Origin: Armatimonadota bacterium
GTDB lineage: Bacteria; Armatimonadota; UBA5829
Length of the DNA: 64,000 bases
Direction: 5' to 3'
Assembly: GCA_039679645.1 (NCBI GenBank)
Contig: JBDKUO010000065.1
Span: forward strand, 1-64,000
The notes beneath the pieces were generated by a model. That model ran no database searches. It saw nothing but the letters and a program-made list of their open reading frames with translations, and was not told where the DNA came from. Positions 308-52,581 of this stretch are shown here, piece after piece (the stretch's first letter is position 1; each line of letters begins with the position of its first letter). The position numbers and the translations under genes were made by a program.

Positions 308-3196
308 TCAACAATATGTCCGCACAATTTCCATCTCAATCCCTTTGCCCGAGTATGAAATAAGGTCTCGCACGGCAGCTTCATCGACTTCCTGTCCGTT
401 TATTAGAATCCTACTAGATGCAAGCCTGTCACCATCGCCTTCACGCCGAACTCGAAGGGTGAACGGCATAACTGTATATTCGCCGTTGTCTGTGCGAATA
501 AAGAGCCTGCGTCGGAATGTGATATTGTCCTTGAGCATTGCAGGCAGGTTCGGCGATACAGTGAGGTCCGGCACTGACGGATCGTGAAGATTTAACCTGA
601 GACCGGCTATACTCTGGAAGACCTCGATGATCCAGTCAGTCGAGCCGGACAGCCCGAAGTACATAGCCTGCCCGAAATGAGGATCGTCCACATCGGATAC
701 ATATGACGTGCATGGTGTCTCAAACGGCCCACCGATAGACTCATCCCGGAGTGCGGACATCATAGGCTTGAACTCTCTCCATACCGTATCCGCCTGGCCG
801 GCCACATTTAGCCGGAACCGGTGCATCATAACCTGAGCGTGATGATATTCACCGTTTTCAGCAGCGCCCGACGGCACCACTCCCATCCTGCCCACCAGCC
901 GAACTGCCTCCCGGTTGTTGCCTATCGGGACAGTGAACAGAGCCAGCCCCAGCTTTTCATGATAGAAGAGAGTATCTATCGTGTTTAGCAGAGATTGTAT
1001 TTTGCGCTCGGCATCGGGAACAGGCGTCAGATACGGTCGTTTGAGGTTAAGCATTTCAAGTCCATAAGCCTGGCTGGTAAGGTCACGGCGCTTGGCTCCG
1101 TCAAAGTCGCTGCCGGACATAGAACCCAGCGTATATCCGGTCTCGCCTTTATCATAAGCAGGCACGCTGCCGTCTTTTTTCAGCTCATGAATTACATTGA
1201 CGAATCCAGGCTTGTCTCCGTCTTCCCAGGCTGTTTTTATCACGGCCTGACGCAGTTTGTCCGCGAAGGATTCAAGCCTCTGAACATCGGGATGGATGCC
1301 TTCACCGGCCAGATAATCCGACACATGCTTAGTCCTCAAAATGTCGATGAACTCGGCCAGAGTCAGCACGACATGCGCCGAGAGACGTGTATGTGATCCG
1401 CGTCCCATCCCGCGAGTAGAGCTGTCACCGACTACCGAGGTGCCGAACATATCCACCGGGTCGCACCACTCACCATAAAGGATCTGAGCCATCTTGTACG
1501 GCGAGTCCAGCACATGCCGCTCGAATGAGGCGAATACTTCCATCGCAACTTCGAGAATACTATGTGTCTTATCGCAGCCGACTATACCCGATTTTTCCGG
1601 GTTGTCCGGGTCAGTGAGCCGTATTGTTTCAACATTTTCAAGCAGCAGCGAGATGTCACCCGTTTCTCTGATCAGCATGCAAAGTGAGTTGATCAGCCAC
1701 AGAGGGCTGTCCGTATACGGCCGGTTGTCGTTAAAGACTTCCTGATCACGGTTTCGCCATGCGCTGGGATACTGGCGGGGAAACATGCCATGTAGCTTTT
1801 CACGTAGAGTCAGGCGGCTTGCCGATGGGTCAGGAGTATAGTCTACAGTCTGGTACATAAAACTCATAGCATGAATCAGATCGGCTCGGACGCGTCCCGG
1901 GTCTTCTTTCATTTTTGGCCACATATCCTGCCCGCGGTCACGCGTGCCGAGTTCTATTCCGTCAGCAAGCATTGCGCCGTGAGCGCGGCAATTTTCGTAT
2001 ATCTCACTGACGCCTGTCCATACCGAGTTGGCATACTGGGCTACAACCGGGTCACTAGGTATCCGAATATCAAAATCAGGATGCGCCTCACCATCCTTTG
2101 TCCCTCGACGGCTGCGGGCAGCATCCAATACTGCATCCGGCGCCGAACTCACAAGCATTTCTGCTGCAGTCTTGAATGCGTTGGATATTGCGCTATAGGT
2201 AGGCGCGTCTGCTAAGGAGCATTTTCTGAATGCTTCGATGATATCGGGGTCTGTAACATAGAGCAGGCTCTGGAACAATGCAGCGGATTCTCCAGCCTTA
2301 AGGTCGAATGAGTAGCCGTTTGCAGCAATAGTAGGTGATGAAAACCGGTTCATTCTATCGCCCGCGCCTTCAGACAGAAGTTCACCACGCAGCACCGCCT
2401 GCGGCGTAATTATACTCGCTGAAGAGCTGCCGACAAAACTCATATAGTCGCATGTCTGAGCTAATGGCTTGAACCCTTCAAAGCGGGACGACTGCCGCTT
2501 GATTTGCAATATATCGCTATATGGCACAACTGCCGAGGCCACTGTTTCAGTATCAGATAAAGGTAAACCGGAGTCATACCAGAGGTCTTTGTTGTAGACA
2601 AATCGCTGGGTGCCGTGCAGATTAAAATGTGTCCACAATGATCCTTGAACGGATTCTGCACCCGCATTTTTGACCATCATCTGGCGAAAGATTGCAGGCC
2701 CCTGATCCAGATATACCAGCGACAGCCGCACCGCGGTACGTATTTTTACTCCATTGGGCTTTAAGAACTCGGCGAAATACCAATACGCCCGGTCCGGTTC
2801 ACCCATCTTTACCAGTCTGTGGGCTGTCGGTTCCAACGAGCGATTATTTAACGGGTTGATGATAGATGCAATGCAGGGTTGGCCGTCGATTTCGAGTCGA
2901 AGCCAGACATTGGATGATGGTGTGCCTGTCTCGCGTTTTGCTGTGGTGTCAAAGTGAGATTCCAGGATATTGACTTCAAGTCCTTCCTCGATCTTGACTA
3001 AAAACCCTAACGATCCGTTGGACATAAACGTGGCAGTAGCATTTTGCTTCTGGTCTACCAGCACTGATGGGCAGGCAACAGGCGGGGCATCATATATCAC
3101 TTCTCCGTCTTTGCCGTAGCCGCCGATCTTGTTGACTCGATCAGCTATTTCCATACCGAACAAGCGCTCTGCTTCATTTTTGAACTCTACAAACAT
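308..3196 (-). CDS. GH94-like glycoside phosphorylase / GT36-type protein
   Basis: The 962-residue protein has the layout of GH94 (former GT36) cellobiose/cellodextrin phosphorylase-like enzymes: an N-terminal beta-sandwich (about 1-330), an (alpha/alpha)6 toroid (about 380-850) and a C-terminal beta lid. The toroid shows GTRDRGQDMWP near residue 418, matching the family's RD-Q-D element, and GEWCDPVDMFG near 580, at the place of the family general-acid Asp motif. Members split beta-glucosides with phosphate. There is no signal peptide, so it is cytoplasmic. GAGG lies 5 nt before the ATG, and a terminator follows the stop. It appears monocistronic. Substrate cannot be read from sequence; the altered acid motif (EWCD rather than DWND) makes a non-cellobiose substrate or a divergent role possible. 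Confidence 0.75.
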   Translation of the reverse strand: MFVEFKNEAERLFGMEIADRVNKIGGYGKDGEVIYDAPPVACPSVLVDQKQNATATFMSNGSLGFLVKIEEGLEVNILESHFDTTAKRETGTPSSNVWLRLEIDGQPCIASIINPLNNRSLEPTAHRLVKMGEPDRAYWYFAEFLKPNGVKIRTAVRLSLVYLDQGPAIFRQMMVKNAGAESVQGSLWTHFNLHGTQRFVYNKDLWYDSGLPLSDTETVASAVVPYSDILQIKRQSSRFEGFKPLAQTCDYMSFVGSSSASIITPQAVLRGELLSEGAGDRMNRFSSPTIAANGYSFDLKAGESAALFQSLLYVTDPDIIEAFRKCSLADAPTYSAISNAFKTAAEMLVSSAPDAVLDAARSRRGTKDGEAHPDFDIRIPSDPVVAQYANSVWTGVSEIYENCRAHGAMLADGIELGTRDRGQDMWPKMKEDPGRVRADLIHAMSFMYQTVDYTPDPSASRLTLREKLHGMFPRQYPSAWRNRDQEVFNDNRPYTDSPLWLINSLCMLIRETGDISLLLENVETIRLTDPDNPEKSGIVGCDKTHSILEVAMEVFASFERHVLDSPYKMAQILYGEWCDPVDMFGTSVVGDSSTRGMGRGSHTRLSAHVVLTLAEFIDILRTKHVSDYLAGEGIHPDVQRLESFADKLRQAVIKTAWEDGDKPGFVNVIHELKKDGSVPAYDKGETGYTLGSMSGSDFDGAKRRDLTSQAYGLEMLNLKRPYLTPVPDAERKIQSLLNTIDTLFYHEKLGLALFTVPIGNNREAVRLVGRMGVVPSGAAENGEYHHAQVMMHRFRLNVAGQADTVWREFKPMMSALRDESIGGPFETPCTSYVSDVDDPHFGQAMYFGLSGSTDWIIEVFQSIAGLRLNLHDPSVPDLTVSPNLPAMLKDNITFRRRLFIRTDNGEYTVMPFTLRVRREGDGDRLASSRILINGQEVDEAAVRDLISYSGKGIEMEIVRTYC

Positions 3197-3311: not shown

Positions 3312-4460
3312 TTAGTAATAATTTACTTCGACTGTCTTGTCCTCATCTCTCAATAATGCAGCAAGAGTCTCGACGACAGAGCGCCGTAGGAGCATTTCAG
3401 GGGGGAAGCTTGCATTCTGGTGAGCTGCATTGCGAGCAGTACCGACCATAAACGTGATGCCGTCGCATGATTTCAAAATATCATATAGCTTTGTGGCGGC
3501 GTTTTCCTCGCCATCGGGCACGCCGCGCTTCATGTAATCGACAACGCGATTGAGTGTGAGCATGCCTTCTGTAACAATATCTATTCCTTCGATCTTGGCA
3601 GTCGGCGGGAGACCTGTGTCCAGGTATTTCAGCTCGATCTCAACTTCTTTGCCCATCTTTTCGGCCACAAGATGCGATGTCGTGCCTCCCGCGACGATCT
3701 TTATCCCGGGAGCGGACAGAAAATCGTTGAGCATGCGAGGCATGTCCTTCGGATCGCCCGCCGGACCGGTTATAACTACAGCGTTCCGCGCCTTTCTGTA
3801 GCGTGTCGCAACGACCGTTCCGTCATCGCCCGGTGACGATTCCCACAGTTCATTCGCCTGCTTGAGGACTATATCCGCCAACCTCTCAGGGTCGCCTTCA
3901 GCCAGGTGTGCGACATGGCTCAGATAGCTCTGAACGCCTTCCTCCTGCCAGCCCATGCGCATCGTCGTGCCGACCCCGGCATGGATGATTCCGTCCGACA
4001 TCTGCAGGATAACATCATTCGGTTTGAGCCTGAAGTGAGTCTCGCGGATCGTTTTGTCGAGGACTTCAACTTCAGAGCCTATGGCCGGACTGACCTTGAC
4101 ACCGCCTCTGAGTCTTAATGAGATCGGAGAGTCATACTCGACCAGAGTCGCCTGACCTGTGTCATATATTCGCAGAATCGAAAAAGTAGAGTAAGCAATG
4201 CCGCGCCATTTGCAAACAGGCAGGGTCGCGACCAATGTCTCGACCATTTCATGCGTACTCAGGTTGCCGCTCGCAAGACCACCGACAATTTCGACCGTGA
4301 GCGTCGAGAGCACATTTGCCTTAACACCGCTGCCCAGGCCGTCCGAGAGCACGATTACCATTGAATCAGGCGCACGAAAGACCTTGAACGAGTCGCCGCA
4401 GGTGTCCTCGCCCTTCTTAGAAAAACTCTTTCCGATTACATCTACCGTATATTGCTTCAT
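3312..4460 (-). CDS. SpoIIE/PP2C-type serine phosphatase linked to sensory hydrogenase
   Basis: 382 residues. The first 220 form a SpoIIE-type PP2C domain with metal-binding signatures SDGLGSG (39-45), ILQMSDGI (about 150) and SPGDDGT (about 209). The C-terminal 155 residues form a separate alpha/beta domain not assigned here (starts VVITGPAGD, contains VAGGTTSHLVAEK). SpoIIE phosphatases normally dephosphorylate a serine on STAS-domain antagonists. The gene is third in an operon after a [2Fe-2S] protein and a PAS-containing [FeFe] hydrogenase, an arrangement known for group C sensory hydrogenases. It is therefore the likely output of a redox or H2 sensor. Two STAS proteins elsewhere in the window (16.1 and 52.2 kb) are candidate substrates. 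Confidence 0.85.
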   Translation of the reverse strand: MKQYTVDVIGKSFSKKGEDTCGDSFKVFRAPDSMVIVLSDGLGSGVKANVLSTLTVEIVGGLASGNLSTHEMVETLVATLPVCKWRGIAYSTFSILRIYDTGQATLVEYDSPISLRLRGGVKVSPAIGSEVEVLDKTIRETHFRLKPNDVILQMSDGIIHAGVGTTMRMGWQEEGVQSYLSHVAHLAEGDPERLADIVLKQANELWESSPGDDGTVVATRYRKARNAVVITGPAGDPKDMPRMLNDFLSAPGIKIVAGGTTSHLVAEKMGKEVEIELKYLDTGLPPTAKIEGIDIVTEGMLTLNRVVDYMKRGVPDGEENAATKLYDILKSCDGITFMVGTARNAAHQNASFPPEMLLRRSVVETLAALLRDEDKTVEVNYY

Positions 4461-4468
4461 ATCTGTAC

Positions 4469-4561
4469 AGTCAAAAAGTCAAAAGGCCGAAAAGTCAAAA
4501 AGTTGGGTAATGCGATTTTAAGACGGGTCTTTTTGACTTTCTAACTTTTTGACTTTCAAAC
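4469..4561. repeat. Degenerate octamer arrays forming an inverted pair
   Basis: The spacer between the hydrogenase and phosphatase genes is largely short tandem words. AGTCAAAA AGTCAAAA GGCCGAAA AGTCAAAA spans 4469-4500, and the mirror set TTTTTGAC TTTCTAAC TTTTTGAC TTTCAAAC spans 4530-4561. The two halves give a perfect 14-bp inverted repeat (4491-4504 with 4543-4556) that could fold in the operon mRNA. Confidence 0.75.
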
Positions 4562-4562
4562 T

Positions 4563-6284
4563 CTATTTACTCTCTTCCACATCCTGCGCCAACTGCGTAA
4601 GCTTGCGCAGCAGCACGCGAGTCTCACTTGTAGTCTCGCCGAGGATACTTGCGATCTCCTGGGCCATCCGCATTTGCTTTTCAATCACGCTTTCCGCGTT
4701 GGAAAGCGTCTCAGAGCGAATGCGCGCTATCCGTTCCTCTTCTTCCCTTGTCTTTGTGAGGTTTGCGAAGATCCCGATCATAACGTCCTCGCCGTCGAGC
4801 CTATATATGCTCTCACTTGTGATCAGGTTATACTGCTGAAAAGAGACCGGTTTGCCGCTGATCCTCGGGATAACCTCAGCCGCCACTTTTTCAAAGTCTT
4901 CGGGGTCCATAAGCGTGCTAATGGGTCTGCCGACGAGCTTGTCTGTCGCGCTGAACATGCAGGCGAACGCCGGGTTGAACGAGACTATGTTGAACTGGGC
5001 ATCTACCATGACAATGCCGTTGGGGCTGTTATCTATGATCTGATCGGTCTTGCGCTCGGCAAGCTGGCGCATCCACGGCAGGCACATGCTTCTTTCCGCC
5101 ATGCCCGAGAGCACCGCGAGCGCATTCTCCCTGCACGACGAATATCCGCATGCGCCGCAGTTCAGCTCGTCTTCGAGTGCATATTTGCCTGTTTCGGCCA
5201 AAACCGCCTTGACCGCCGTCTCGCTGAACTGAGGCTGCGTTAGTATCTGTGGGCTGATCTCACGCGCCAGGTCTATCTTTGGTGCACCGGCTATATCAAA
5301 TTCTTTTTCAGCCTCATACGTCTTTCTCTTGTGATATTGAAGTACCTTGTTCCGGCGGGCAAATATGTCTTTGGTGGGGCCCATACATGCGCCGTTTATG
5401 CATCCTCCTGCGCAGAAAAGTGCCTCAAATAACCTGATAGGAGTATTGTCGGATAGGTGGTCTATCATCTCACCTACATGCCTGCTGCCGGATAGAGTTA
5501 TGAAATCCTCGCGCAGCAGGCCCGACGCAATCGAAGCCGTTTTAGCCAGCCCGCCCTCCAATGGGAAAAGCTGAGCATCTTTTGGACGAACATCGTCAAA
5601 GGCTGTAGGCTGCAGCGCGCTCTTTTTGATCCCTGCGTCGGCCAGTGCCTGGTGGAGTTCTTCAAATGTGAGCACCGCATCTACGCTGCGCTCCATATCT
5701 TCATCAGCTTCACCCTTCTTTGCCGAACATGGTCCTATGAAGACGACTTTTGAATCCTCGCCATATTTCTTCTTCAGATATCTTGCATGCGCGATCATAG
5801 GAGAGATAAGAGGCGTTATATTTTCACAGACCTCGGGGTGGTATTTCTCAACGTAGTTCACCACCACAGGACATGCGGAGGTTACCAGTGTATTGTTATT
5901 CTTGTCCATAAGCCCGGCGGTGGCGTGCGCGACCAGTTCAGCGCCGACGGATGTCTCGGTCACCATATCGAACCCGAGTTTCTTTAATGCAGCAGGAAGC
6001 AGACCGTTGCCGTAATCGCCGAATGCAGCGGGAAATGATGGCGCCACGGAGGCGATTTTGTTACCCGATAAGGAGAGAATCTGCATTACTTTCTGCACGT
6101 CATCGCGCACGTGTTTGGCCTGCTGAGGACATTCGCGGACGCATGTGCCGCAGAGTATGCACCTGTCTGCGTCGACACGCGCCTGACCGTCAGCGAACCT
6201 GATAGCCTTTACCGGACAGACTCTAACGCACCTGTAGCAGTCCCTGCACTTAGCTTTATCTGTAGAGATAATGGAGTTTTTCAC
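4563..6284 (-). CDS. hydS: Group C-like sensory [FeFe] hydrogenase with PAS domain (HydS-like)
   Basis: 573 residues. Order: two [4Fe-4S] ferredoxin motifs (C13-C16-C19-C23 and CILCGTCVRECP near 45-56), an H-cluster domain, a CGACGYSSC iron-sulfur motif (about 376), a PAS domain (about 405-500) and a coiled-coil tail. The four H-cluster cysteines are present in TSACP (about 135), GPCSAKKGE (about 186) and FCAGGCINGAC (about 290). The proton-relay Cys of catalytic enzymes (TSCCP) is Ala here, as in sensory-type homologues. No transmembrane segment is seen. The start is GTG, whose GTGA overlaps the stop of the preceding gene, implying translational coupling. Probable role: sensing H2 or redox state and signalling through the downstream SpoIIE phosphatase. 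The hydF/E/G maturases must lie elsewhere. Confidence 0.88.
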   Translation of the reverse strand: MKNSIISTDKAKCRDCYRCVRVCPVKAIRFADGQARVDADRCILCGTCVRECPQQAKHVRDDVQKVMQILSLSGNKIASVAPSFPAAFGDYGNGLLPAALKKLGFDMVTETSVGAELVAHATAGLMDKNNNTLVTSACPVVVNYVEKYHPEVCENITPLISPMIAHARYLKKKYGEDSKVVFIGPCSAKKGEADEDMERSVDAVLTFEELHQALADAGIKKSALQPTAFDDVRPKDAQLFPLEGGLAKTASIASGLLREDFITLSGSRHVGEMIDHLSDNTPIRLFEALFCAGGCINGACMGPTKDIFARRNKVLQYHKRKTYEAEKEFDIAGAPKIDLAREISPQILTQPQFSETAVKAVLAETGKYALEDELNCGACGYSSCRENALAVLSGMAERSMCLPWMRQLAERKTDQIIDNSPNGIVMVDAQFNIVSFNPAFACMFSATDKLVGRPISTLMDPEDFEKVAAEVIPRISGKPVSFQQYNLITSESIYRLDGEDVMIGIFANLTKTREEEERIARIRSETLSNAESVIEKQMRMAQEIASILGETTSETRVLLRKLTQLAQDVEESK

Positions 6285-6541
6285 GATTGCACCCGCGGCA
6301 GAATCTCATTGTTGAAGAATTCCTCGGTCCTCTCCGGCGTCACTCCGCCGTGAACCTTGCCGTCGATGACGACATTGGGCGCGTCCAGACAGTTTCCGAG
6401 GCATAAGTCGGCCTTGAGTTCCACTCTGCCGTCGAGGTGTTCTCGCTCAATCAGCATCTCAAGTGTTCTCAGGGTCTTGCTGCCGCCTTTGACGTGGCAC
6501 GAACTGCCCACACATACTTTGATTTCAAGCTTATCGGACAT
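6281..6541 (-). CDS. Thioredoxin-like [2Fe-2S] ferredoxin (NuoE/HndA C-domain type)
   Basis: 86 residues, a stand-alone thioredoxin-fold [2Fe-2S] domain. The cluster cysteines lie in CVGSSC and, about 35 residues on, LCLGNC, the spacing of the NuoE/HndA C-terminal domain. It lacks the N-terminal helical part of NuoE. AGGAG precedes the ATG by 7 nt. It is first in the operon and overlaps the hydrogenase start by 4 nt. It probably exchanges electrons with the hydrogenase iron-sulfur domains. Stand-alone versions are common beside multimeric and sensory [FeFe] hydrogenases. Confidence 0.85.
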   Translation of the reverse strand: MSDKLEIKVCVGSSCHVKGGSKTLRTLEMLIEREHLDGRVELKADLCLGNCLDAPNVVIDGKVHGGVTPERTEEFFNNEILPRVQS

Positions 6542-16115: not shown

Positions 16116-16469
16116 CTACGCCTTTACAGCTTCAAGCGCTTCGTCGAGGCTGTCATATATTCCAAACACGGTATTGAGCCGGGTAATTTTCAAGATTCTG
16201 TCGATGGAACCACAGCATTTGATCAGGTTTACGGTTCCGCCGGCCGGCTTTAATTGCTTGGTAGCTGAAAGCAGCGCTCCGAAGCCACTGCTGTCCATAT
16301 AGGTTACTTGCGCGAAATTAATGATTAGATGCTTCTGACCACCGGAAAGAACGGAGTTGATCGCCTCCTTGAACTGGGGAGCGGTGTAGACATCAATTTC
16401 CCCTGTTACGTCCAATACATTCACTCCGTCAACATCACGAACATTTGTCTCTAGACGGATACCCTCCAA
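16116..16469 (-). CDS. STAS-domain anti-sigma factor antagonist
   Basis: 117 residues forming one STAS domain like SpoIIAA/RsbV. The phosphorylatable serine lies in TYMDSSGFGALLSA. In partner switching, such proteins free a target from an anti-sigma kinase when a SpoIIE-type phosphatase removes the phosphate. I chose the TTG start at 16469 because AGGAGG lies 7 nt upstream. A GTG two codons earlier would be only 1 nt from the SD. The reading frame stays open upstream into the next gene, but that part is a shadow. No kinase gene is adjacent. Confidence 0.85.
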   Translation of the reverse strand: MEGIRLETNVRDVDGVNVLDVTGEIDVYTAPQFKEAINSVLSGGQKHLIINFAQVTYMDSSGFGALLSATKQLKPAGGTVNLIKCCGSIDRILKITRLNTVFGIYDSLDEALEAVKA

Positions 16470-16522
16470 TGTCACTCCTCCTGTCTGAAGTTCCAAAAGT
16501 ATACACCCCCTACCAGGCAATG

Positions 16523-17218
16523 TCAACCACTGTGTGGACGCCCGGCGACTATCAGTAAATCGAACGTGATAGATGCGAGCCAGTGCAATACGAAGCCGGG
16601 CACAAATGATTTTGCGTTCAAAGCTATGATACCTAGAATTACTCCGGCGCCAAACGACGCTATGACTTCGATGCCCGGCTTGCCTGCATGCAAAATTCCA
16701 AACGCAATTGCCTGCACAAGAATAGCCGACCACCCGATCGACCGCTGCAGCCCGAAGAGCAGATAGCCTCTGAAGAAAAACTCCCAGCAAAACAGATACA
16801 TGCCGTAGCTGAGTTCCGCATAAATCATCATCATTGGGGCAACCAGAAACGGGTTCTGCTGGGGATAACCGGCAAATGCGGCGGCGAAGTCAGGATATCG
16901 TCTGAATATTGGATAGTAGTCCTGGAAACCCTGCATTCGGCTTGCATAGAGCATCATGAAAAAGAGCGCTGCGAATGCTATTACTAAAACAATCCATATC
17001 CGCCGCCAAGAGCCGAGTAAGAACCCGAATTTGTCCGGTTCCTCACCAAAGAAAAACAGAACCGTGAGCATAGGGATCCAGAATATTCCGATCAGGTTGC
17101 CGACCAAATATTGATTGTAGCTGGTGGCGGCGAAATTGAAGCGCAGAAGCGCCGCGACTATCACCGCTCCCACTATCGCAACCACAACCGTGATAAATCT
17201 GTTCTTTCCCTTGACCAA
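16523..17218 (-). CDS. CPBP-family intramembrane protease-like protein
   Basis: 231 residues with about 6-7 transmembrane helices. The CPBP (Abi/CAAX-like) motifs are visible: WEFFFRGYLLFG (about 142-153), FGILHAGKP (about 173) and HWLASITFDLL (about 214). The first Glu of the usual EExxxR motif is Trp here; the second Glu and Arg are kept. Family members are membrane proteases or scaffolds with varied roles. It begins 2 nt from the stop of the amidohydrolase, so the two are likely co-transcribed, with the STAS gene downstream. Confidence 0.82.
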   Translation of the reverse strand: MVKGKNRFITVVVAIVGAVIVAALLRFNFAATSYNQYLVGNLIGIFWIPMLTVLFFFGEEPDKFGFLLGSWRRIWIVLVIAFAALFFMMLYASRMQGFQDYYPIFRRYPDFAAAFAGYPQQNPFLVAPMMMIYAELSYGMYLFCWEFFFRGYLLFGLQRSIGWSAILVQAIAFGILHAGKPGIEVIASFGAGVILGIIALNAKSFVPGFVLHWLASITFDLLIVAGRPHSG

Positions 17219-51823: not shown

Positions 51824-52188
51824 TCATATACCTCCAAGATGCAAATTCCATTGAAGAGCGTATTTCTCCTTCTATGAGAGGGCGGGTCTATGGAAAATAG
51901 CAGATGATGTGATTGTTTGCGCTAGGTAGACTAGTCCGAAATATAGTATAATTGATGCACGGCATGTTATGTGAGGTGTTTATTTCTCAAGGAAGGGAAA
52001 AATACACATAGCGTCTAAGATTGAAATTGTCCATTGGACATGCTGGCGACTGTTCAATTTTTTATGTCACGACCCCGGACGGGTGCATGTATGTACTGGG
52101 GGAGCCTGAACCATTGGATAAATTGGGTGGGTTTGGACTTCTGGGCTGTAGTTTGGGCCGTCGTAGTCGAGAAAGGAGTTCATCGGCA
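51824..52188. other. Spacer before the STAS operon
   Basis: 365 nt between divergent genes hold the SD of mtnP, a TATAAT at 51947-51952 without a clear -35, and no gene. The STAS reading frame is open upstream to 52021, but codon content and the good SD at 52172 argue that it is not coding. No known riboswitch pattern was recognised. Confidence 0.45.
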
Positions 52189-52581
52189 ATGGAAATGGAT
52201 TTACAAATAAACGTCCGTAAGAATGGCACCACAAGAATTATTGAGCTAAACGGGGAAGTGGACGCATATACGTCTGCGCGTTTCAGAGAGATCATGCTTG
52301 AGTTGATAGACGACGGAGGCATTGATCTGATTATCAATATGTGTAAAGTCGAATATATAGACAGCTCAGGGCTTGGCGCTCTTGTCGGCGGATTGAAGAG
52401 GGTAAGCGAGCGCGACGGAAAGATTATGATCGTCAGCGACGGACCTCAAATCAAGAAAGTATTCGAGATTACGGGGCTGGAAAAAGTGTTTCCCATCTTT
52501 GACGCGGAGCACGCTGCCGTTACGGCATTAGATCAAATCACGAACAGGAATCGAGGTCTTGTTGTTGATGGCGAAAACTGA
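52189..52581 (+). CDS. STAS-domain anti-sigma factor antagonist
   Basis: 130 residues, one STAS domain. Phospho-Ser motif VEYIDSSGLGALVGGL, and NGEVDAYTSARFREIM as the typical beta-1/helix entry. Similar to but distinct from the 16.1-kb protein. AAAGGAG precedes the ATG by 10 nt. Its stop overlaps the following glycosyltransferase start by 14 nt, so translation is coupled. No anti-sigma kinase or sigma factor is next to it. It may regulate enzyme activity or gene expression of a glycan operon; it is a candidate substrate of the SpoIIE phosphatase at 3.3 kb. Confidence 0.87.
   Translation: MEMDLQINVRKNGTTRIIELNGEVDAYTSARFREIMLELIDDGGIDLIINMCKVEYIDSSGLGALVGGLKRVSERDGKIMIVSDGPQIKKVFEITGLEKVFPIFDAEHAAVTALDQITNRNRGLVVDGEN

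Follow-up and report, generated by a model that had tools for sequence, protein, structure and literature searches.

To what does a sensory [FeFe] hydrogenase pass its signal when its gene is followed by that of a SpoIIE-type phosphatase? This question is raised by a three-gene operon on the minus strand of a 64,000-nucleotide stretch of Armatimonadota bacterium DNA (contig JBDKUO010000065.1, positions 1 to 64,000), here called the window, to the whole of which the coordinates refer. The operon (3312-6541) encodes an 86-aa [2Fe-2S] protein, a 573-aa sensory-type hydrogenase (HydS) and a 382-aa phosphatase, in this order. We consider it likely that these genes form a phosphatase-linked sensory [FeFe] hydrogenase module, of the kind classified as C3 or known from hfs operons, which steers the phosphatase in fermentative electron disposal.

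The first gene (6281..6541, on the minus strand like all features of the operon) encodes a thioredoxin-like [2Fe-2S] protein (PF01257, 49.9 bits), and its TGA stop codon shares the sequence GTGA with the GTG start codon of HydS (4563..6284; assigned by Pfam and NCBIfam and aligned with 91 relatives). The phosphatase gene (3312..4460; PF07228, 57 bits, PP2C fold by AlphaFold2 and Foldseek) follows HydS after a gap of 102 bp, and this third gene is thus not tightly packed. Thereby, coordinates, gene order, the overlap of the first two genes and the domain calls of the original prediction, including a phosphatase C-terminal domain unassigned in Pfam, were confirmed. The gap (4461..4562) is occupied by an A/T-rich long hairpin (-29.6 kcal/mol, z -5.0), and a comparable hairpin lies at the equivalent position between HydS and phosphatase in the same-genus genome G251. 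The motif AAAGTCAAAAAG of this hairpin is nearly missing from the remainder of the window.

HydS starts with two [4Fe-4S] motifs of the Fer4 families, C13 C16 C19 C23 and C42 C45 C48 C52 (6117..6269), which are kept in relatives. They are followed by the H-cluster domain Fe_hyd_lg_C (residues 77-299, 5388..6056; PF02906, 173 bits), a C-terminal FeS motif Cx2Cx4Cx16C formed by C376, C379, C384 and C401 (5076..5165; PF04060 FeS, residues 374-403), a PAS domain (residues 414-507, 4764..5045; PAS_9, PAS and sensory_box all above cut-offs) and a conserved tail, KQMRMAQEIASILGETTSETRVLLRKL (4599..4679), a candidate output segment by its identity to the hydrogenase-free PAS proteins described below. 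The H-cluster ligands C138, C186, C291 and C295 are all present and were invariant in an alignment of 92 HydS sequences, indicating that the metal site is under selection. At the positions of C299, M353 and M497 of the hydrogenase CpI, HydS carries A137 (within TSACP, 5868-5882), G184 and L289. The replacement of the proton-relay cysteine by alanine, to which the original prediction had drawn attention, is therefore real in this protein. It is not a trait of the family: 52 of the 92 related HydS keep Cys at the aligned position, and loss of this residue was rejected as a family mark. Gly at the M353-equivalent position is found in 88 of them. The four H-cluster cysteines, the Cx2Cx4Cx16C motif (described for groups C and D, PMC8163306) with a PAS domain behind it and the altered C299 and M353 positions are features of group C (M2f) hydrogenases.

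The catalytic part of the phosphatase (3798..4367; PF07228 SpoIIE match at residues 32-221) has all five Asp of the metal-ligand type, D23, D40, D156, D212 and D213, invariant in 103 sequences. The best Foldseek matches of the AlphaFold2 model were the phosphatase domains of SpoIIE and RsbU.

The linkage of the two genes extends to relatives. When 84,980 species genomes were searched with the genome's own three phosphatases of this kind (see below), at least 554 relatives were obtained, and 80 loci were fetched by phosphatase similarity, spanning many Clostridia, Paenibacillus, Calditrichales, a Planctomycetota metagenome-assembled genome (MAG) and Thermoanaerobacter. In each of the 79 testable loci, the phosphatase gene is directly preceded by a HydS-type gene of the same strand; L067 ends at a contig border and is untestable, L117 was missed by the distance cut-off and counted since its HydS open reading frame overlaps that of the phosphatase, and L119 is a hydrogenase-free version included among the 79. 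The [2Fe-2S] gene directly precedes HydS in 61 of 74 testable loci, and a hydrogenase gene directly follows the phosphatase in 46 of 74. In the fetched flanks, adhE was found in 10 and a bifurcating-type HydB in 16 of the 80 loci. In the phylum of the window, 20 out of 255 genomes carry the phosphatase. The claim of the original prediction that a group C-type sensory hydrogenase is coupled to a SpoIIE-type phosphatase is borne out by the domains and this near-absolute linkage.

The genome (3.41 Mb, 69 contigs, 99.7% complete) encodes ten proteins with a Fe_hyd_lg_C domain. HydE, HydF and HydG, whose absence would have spoken against the original prediction, were looked for and are all encoded elsewhere in the genome, above curated cut-offs. 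There are three HydS-phosphatase pairs, one in the window, one at C9 directly behind rex-hydB-hydA, and one on C32, with a TIGR04105-type hydrogenase (521 bits) behind it and adhE as a divergent neighbour (L042:12894-15554). The three phosphatases share a mutual identity of only 32-33% and fall into separate parts of the family tree, which argues for old lineages and not for recent duplicates. They are also the most divergent of the 12 SpoIIE proteins in the genome. The other nine are canonical, at least two of them, on C24 and C53, being encoded beside fused STAS-HATPase (STAS-kinase) genes.

Operons of this kind are already known from clostridia that live in the gut or are thermophilic; the present one lacks the hydrogenase HfsD. 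Class C3 of HydDB, named in 2016, comprises 'phosphatase-linked (putative)' sensory hydrogenases (PMC5037454), and shares with our operon a PAS-bearing sensory-type [FeFe] hydrogenase adjoining a Ser/Thr phosphatase gene; the likeness is one of gene linkage and not a result of the HydDB classifier, and this genome holds three deep lineages of the pair. In the hfsABCD operon of Thermoanaerobacterium, HfsB is a HydS with PAS domain and is followed by HfsC, a serine phosphatase homologue (PMC5707799, PMC11837493). In contrast, no HfsD-type hydrogenase gene lies downstream of the window operon, where a gene for a 962-aa glycosyl-hydrolase-94-like (GH94-like) protein stands instead. HfsA is at most a candidate counterpart of the [2Fe-2S] protein; in Thermoanaerobacter L118 no such small gene was detected. 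The GH94-like gene (308-3196) lies directly downstream of the phosphatase on the same strand, and none was found at the corresponding place in G251. Thermoanaerobacterium strains deleted for hfsA or hfsB express adhE more strongly and yield more ethanol (PMC5707799). Ruminococcus albus 7 likewise possesses a HydS with PAS domain together with a putative Ser/Thr phosphatase, and its HydS/HydA2/AdhE cluster was expressed at a 111-fold lower level in co-culture with a hydrogen consumer (PMC6776011); there hydS is co-transcribed with hydA2 and adhE, whereas the window copy adjoins neither. The original prediction had held that few such outputs have been traced. This stands for the direct substrate. 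For the link to a phosphatase it does not, named as it has been since HydDB, and both the hfsB genetics and the R. albus hydS expression data exist (PMC5037454, PMC5707799, PMC6776011). Our literature searches for SpoIIE with a sensory hydrogenase returned no paper.

Among characterised proteins, TmHydS of Thermotoga maritima is also of group C, with Ala at the C299 position, a C-terminal FeS cluster and a PAS domain (PMC10055695) as well as Gly at the M353 position (PMC8163306); the M497 position is Ser in TmHydS and Leu in the window HydS. TamHydS of group D (M2e) shares the H-domain without the C299 cysteine and the C-terminal FeS motif, but lacks a PAS domain and has an ATPase/kinase gene linked to it in a hydABC neighbourhood (PMC8163306, PMC13104023). 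Its counterpart in this genome is the C40 protein. The RsbU/RsbV/RsbW and SpoIIE/SpoIIAA/SpoIIAB switches have the SpoIIE-type PP2C catalytic domain in common with our operon. They differ in that neither a STAS gene nor a gene for an anti-sigma kinase lies beside that of the window phosphatase, which carries an extra C-terminal domain and has its sensor in trans, in form of the hydrogenase.

From the domains, the intact metal ligands, the near-absolute linkage, the maturases and the hydBA, rex and adhE neighbourhood in this genome and its relatives, the following sequence of events can be proposed. HydS would read hydrogen, or the redox state of its own FeS chain, at the H-cluster, and most likely exchange electrons with the [2Fe-2S] protein. 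PAS domain and conserved tail would hand this state on to the phosphatase, possibly by direct contact through the tail. The phosphatase may then dephosphorylate some Ser/Thr-phosphoprotein, as yet putative as is the sign of the response, which would adjust fermentative electron disposal between hydrogen and ethanol.

Several observations weigh against this reading. Hydrogen sensing by group C hydrogenases is itself termed putative (PMC8924675). The 80 loci were picked by similarity, so that the fractions given apply to the nearer relatives, and linkage may be looser among distant members; flank lengths vary among loci, making the neighbour counts lower bounds. The window copy has neither a hydrogenase gene nor adhE alongside. 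In G252, a genome of the same genus, the [2Fe-2S]-HydS part (L196:3318-5443) and the phosphatase (L197:5985-7130) are found on separate contigs; the operon is split there, yet each half is intact and both are kept. Furthermore, there are relatives in which the phosphatase needs no hydrogen sensor.

In these relatives an operon of [2Fe-2S] gene, PAS gene and phosphatase gene occurs without hydrogenase (L201:6016-7975, minus strand; L210:1195-3178, plus; L200:5786-7737, minus; L119:3042-5048, plus). It was found in L119, from a MAG labelled Ilyobacter polytropus, and in the genomes G063, G091 and G092, of which G063 has one full and one hydrogenase-free copy. The middle gene encodes about 165-190 aa consisting of PAS domain and tail only, while the [2Fe-2S] gene and the phosphatase, including its C-terminal domain, are intact. 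No Fe_hyd_lg_C match was found anywhere in G091 (98% complete) and G092 (92%). The tail of the hydrogenase-free PAS proteins is identical to that of the window HydS at 17-19 of 27 residues, compared to 22-30 of 94 for the PAS domain. The conserved segment reads KQMxxAQEIAxxLGETTxET. Read most simply, this would make the tail the contact by which the output passes to the phosphatase, and the hydrogenase an input that can be dispensed with. In the tree, the four hydrogenase-free phosphatases form one group (Shimodaira-Hasegawa approximate likelihood-ratio test 86) among hydrogenase-bearing clades; as the tree is unrooted, this position is compatible with one loss of the hydrogenase as well as with its original absence. 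A scan of viral contigs with a hydrogenase-free phosphatase found no relative. The hydrogenase-free version, with the same conserved tail behind the PAS domain and present in two genomes without detectable [FeFe] hydrogenase, is new here; it was not found described in literature searches, most subscription papers lying outside their reach.

Also new is the C-terminal domain of the phosphatase (residues 224-382, 3315..3791), which is without sequence relatives outside the family and has a predicted fold nearest to the Rossmann-like domain of NuoG and FwdB. No credible match to a Pfam family was obtained with 62 family members as queries, and no sequence relative was found among solved structures in the PDB. 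An AlphaFold2 model built from 62 sequences reached a predicted local distance difference test score of 90 and a predicted template modelling score of 0.85. Foldseek searches with this model gave nothing below an E-value of 0.001; the best E-value was 0.014, and folds other than that of NuoG/FwdB ranked first. With VIA-align, E. coli NuoG (371-532) was matched over 119 residues (Z 10.6, root-mean-square deviation 3.0, 11% identity). The ten best rows were all NuoG/75-kDa or FwdB/FhcB proteins (Z 8.2-10.6 for nine, 7.2 for the tenth), and the next unrelated fold scored Z 5.9. The domain is likely to be Rossmann-like and akin to the molybdopterin oxidoreductase domain of NuoG and FwdB/FhcB, as judged from the predicted model.

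Which alternatives could account for the operon? Proteins with a STAS domain are the classical substrates of SpoIIE-type phosphatases, and the original prediction had named the window's two orphan representatives (16116..16790, minus strand; 52021..52581, plus strand; both NCBIfam ant_ant_sig) as targets in a hydrogen-responsive partner switch. If this were of the Rsb type, the dephosphorylated STAS proteins would bind an RsbW-like kinase and a sigma factor would be freed. Both proteins are real and orphan, and the genome is rich in RsbW-like ATPases. However, they are only two of 13 STAS proteins, encoded about 12 and 48 kb from the operon, and the genome has nine other, canonical SpoIIE proteins. 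None of the 80 related loci showed a STAS gene at a distance of up to about 8 kb from the module, and a PF01740 search of 40 module-bearing genomes gave no match in two, Anaerorhabdus furcosa ATCC 25662 and Erysipelotrichaceae UBA2227. Absence of STAS proteins from these two, a draft genome and a MAG, is likely but not certain. STAS proteins were therefore rejected as the general mechanism and are unlikely as the general target of the phosphatase; also for this one genome nothing points to them, and the partner switch is the least probable of the explanations considered here. Instead, the phosphatase might be the counterpart of an RsbW-like Ser/Thr kinase whose gene on C40 is overlapped by that of the group D-type sensor (both within L044:3005-4874), kinase and phosphatase acting on one shared substrate. 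This sensor has Ala at the C299 position and no PAS domain, and its gene pair lies in a hydABC neighbourhood; the ATPase gene beside TamHydS has been noted before (PMC8163306). The pair is present in this genome and in all seven others examined, including both genomes without STAS match. Within the phylum, 9 genomes have both the group D-type protein and the phosphatase, 11 the phosphatase only, 4 the group D-type protein only and 231 neither; the corresponding values for the class are 9, 1, 4 and 12 (Fisher p 0.004, uncorrected for kinship). In L203, L064, L065 and L079 an RsbW-like kinase gene lies some 3-8 kb from the module; the window operon has none beside it. On the other hand, 11 of the 20 phosphatase-bearing genomes of the phylum have no group D protein at the cut-off used, in a survey for that protein, and the co-occurrence is confounded by kinship and by the common need for [FeFe] hydrogenase maturation. 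The kinase pair was thus not upheld as an obligate partner, and the opposing kinase, improbable as it is at present, is a lead and not a result. The tightest kinase-phosphatase neighbourhood seen is L203:5588-12853 (G256), with HydS, phosphatase, RsbW-like kinase and PHP-like genes on one strand within about 7 kb. The group D-type proteins of the two Erysipelotrichia without STAS match (L141:6388-7569, L142:7194-8369) have no PCxxK motif of the H-cluster site, and may, to judge from their sequences, have lost the hydrogen chemistry and kept the kinase partner.

Other alternatives concern the signal. HydS could respond to ferredoxin or the [2Fe-2S] protein as redox carrier instead of to hydrogen, with the H-cluster as a slow redox buffer. 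The hydrogenase-free operons speak for this: [2Fe-2S] protein, PAS domain and phosphatase are kept where no [FeFe] hydrogenase is detectable in the genome. They also suggest that these three can act on their own as a redox switch. The invariant H-cluster ligands speak against it and the R. albus data fit a response to hydrogen (PMC6776011), so that we regard a pure carrier sensor as rather unlikely. It is very improbable that HydS is mainly a low-turnover catalytic hydrogenase with the phosphatase merely on the same transcript. TmHydS, which likewise has Ala at the C299 position, shows measurable activity (PMC10055695), and in the window the hairpin sets the phosphatase gene apart, but the linkage in 79 of 79 testable loci speaks against it, and so do the operons that lack the hydrogenase domain and still keep PAS domain and tail together with the phosphatase. 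A serious possibility, though not the one we favour, is a wider form of the switch: the real unit may be a general redox-controlled phosphatase switch of [2Fe-2S] protein, PAS domain with tail and PP2C phosphatase with NuoG-like domain, to which the [FeFe] hydrogenase is one built-in input. This unit would function without hydrogenase in organisms that possess none, and in those with hydrogenases it would oppose an RsbW-like kinase tied to a second sensor, that of group D. The phosphatase-linked sensory hydrogenase module remains our preferred reading for the window operon.

How fermenting bacteria read hydrogen and choose between hydrogen, acetate and ethanol is a long-standing question, with bearing on interspecies hydrogen transfer, rumen methane and bioethanol. 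What comes after HydS is the gap in this picture, and the family survey narrows it: within the sampled part of the family, the phosphatase is almost exclusively a partner of HydS. Judging from the hydrogenase-free form, the phosphatase switch would be the core, to which hydrogen sensing has been added, and this form provides a small system for studying the step from PAS domain to phosphatase without H-cluster maturation.

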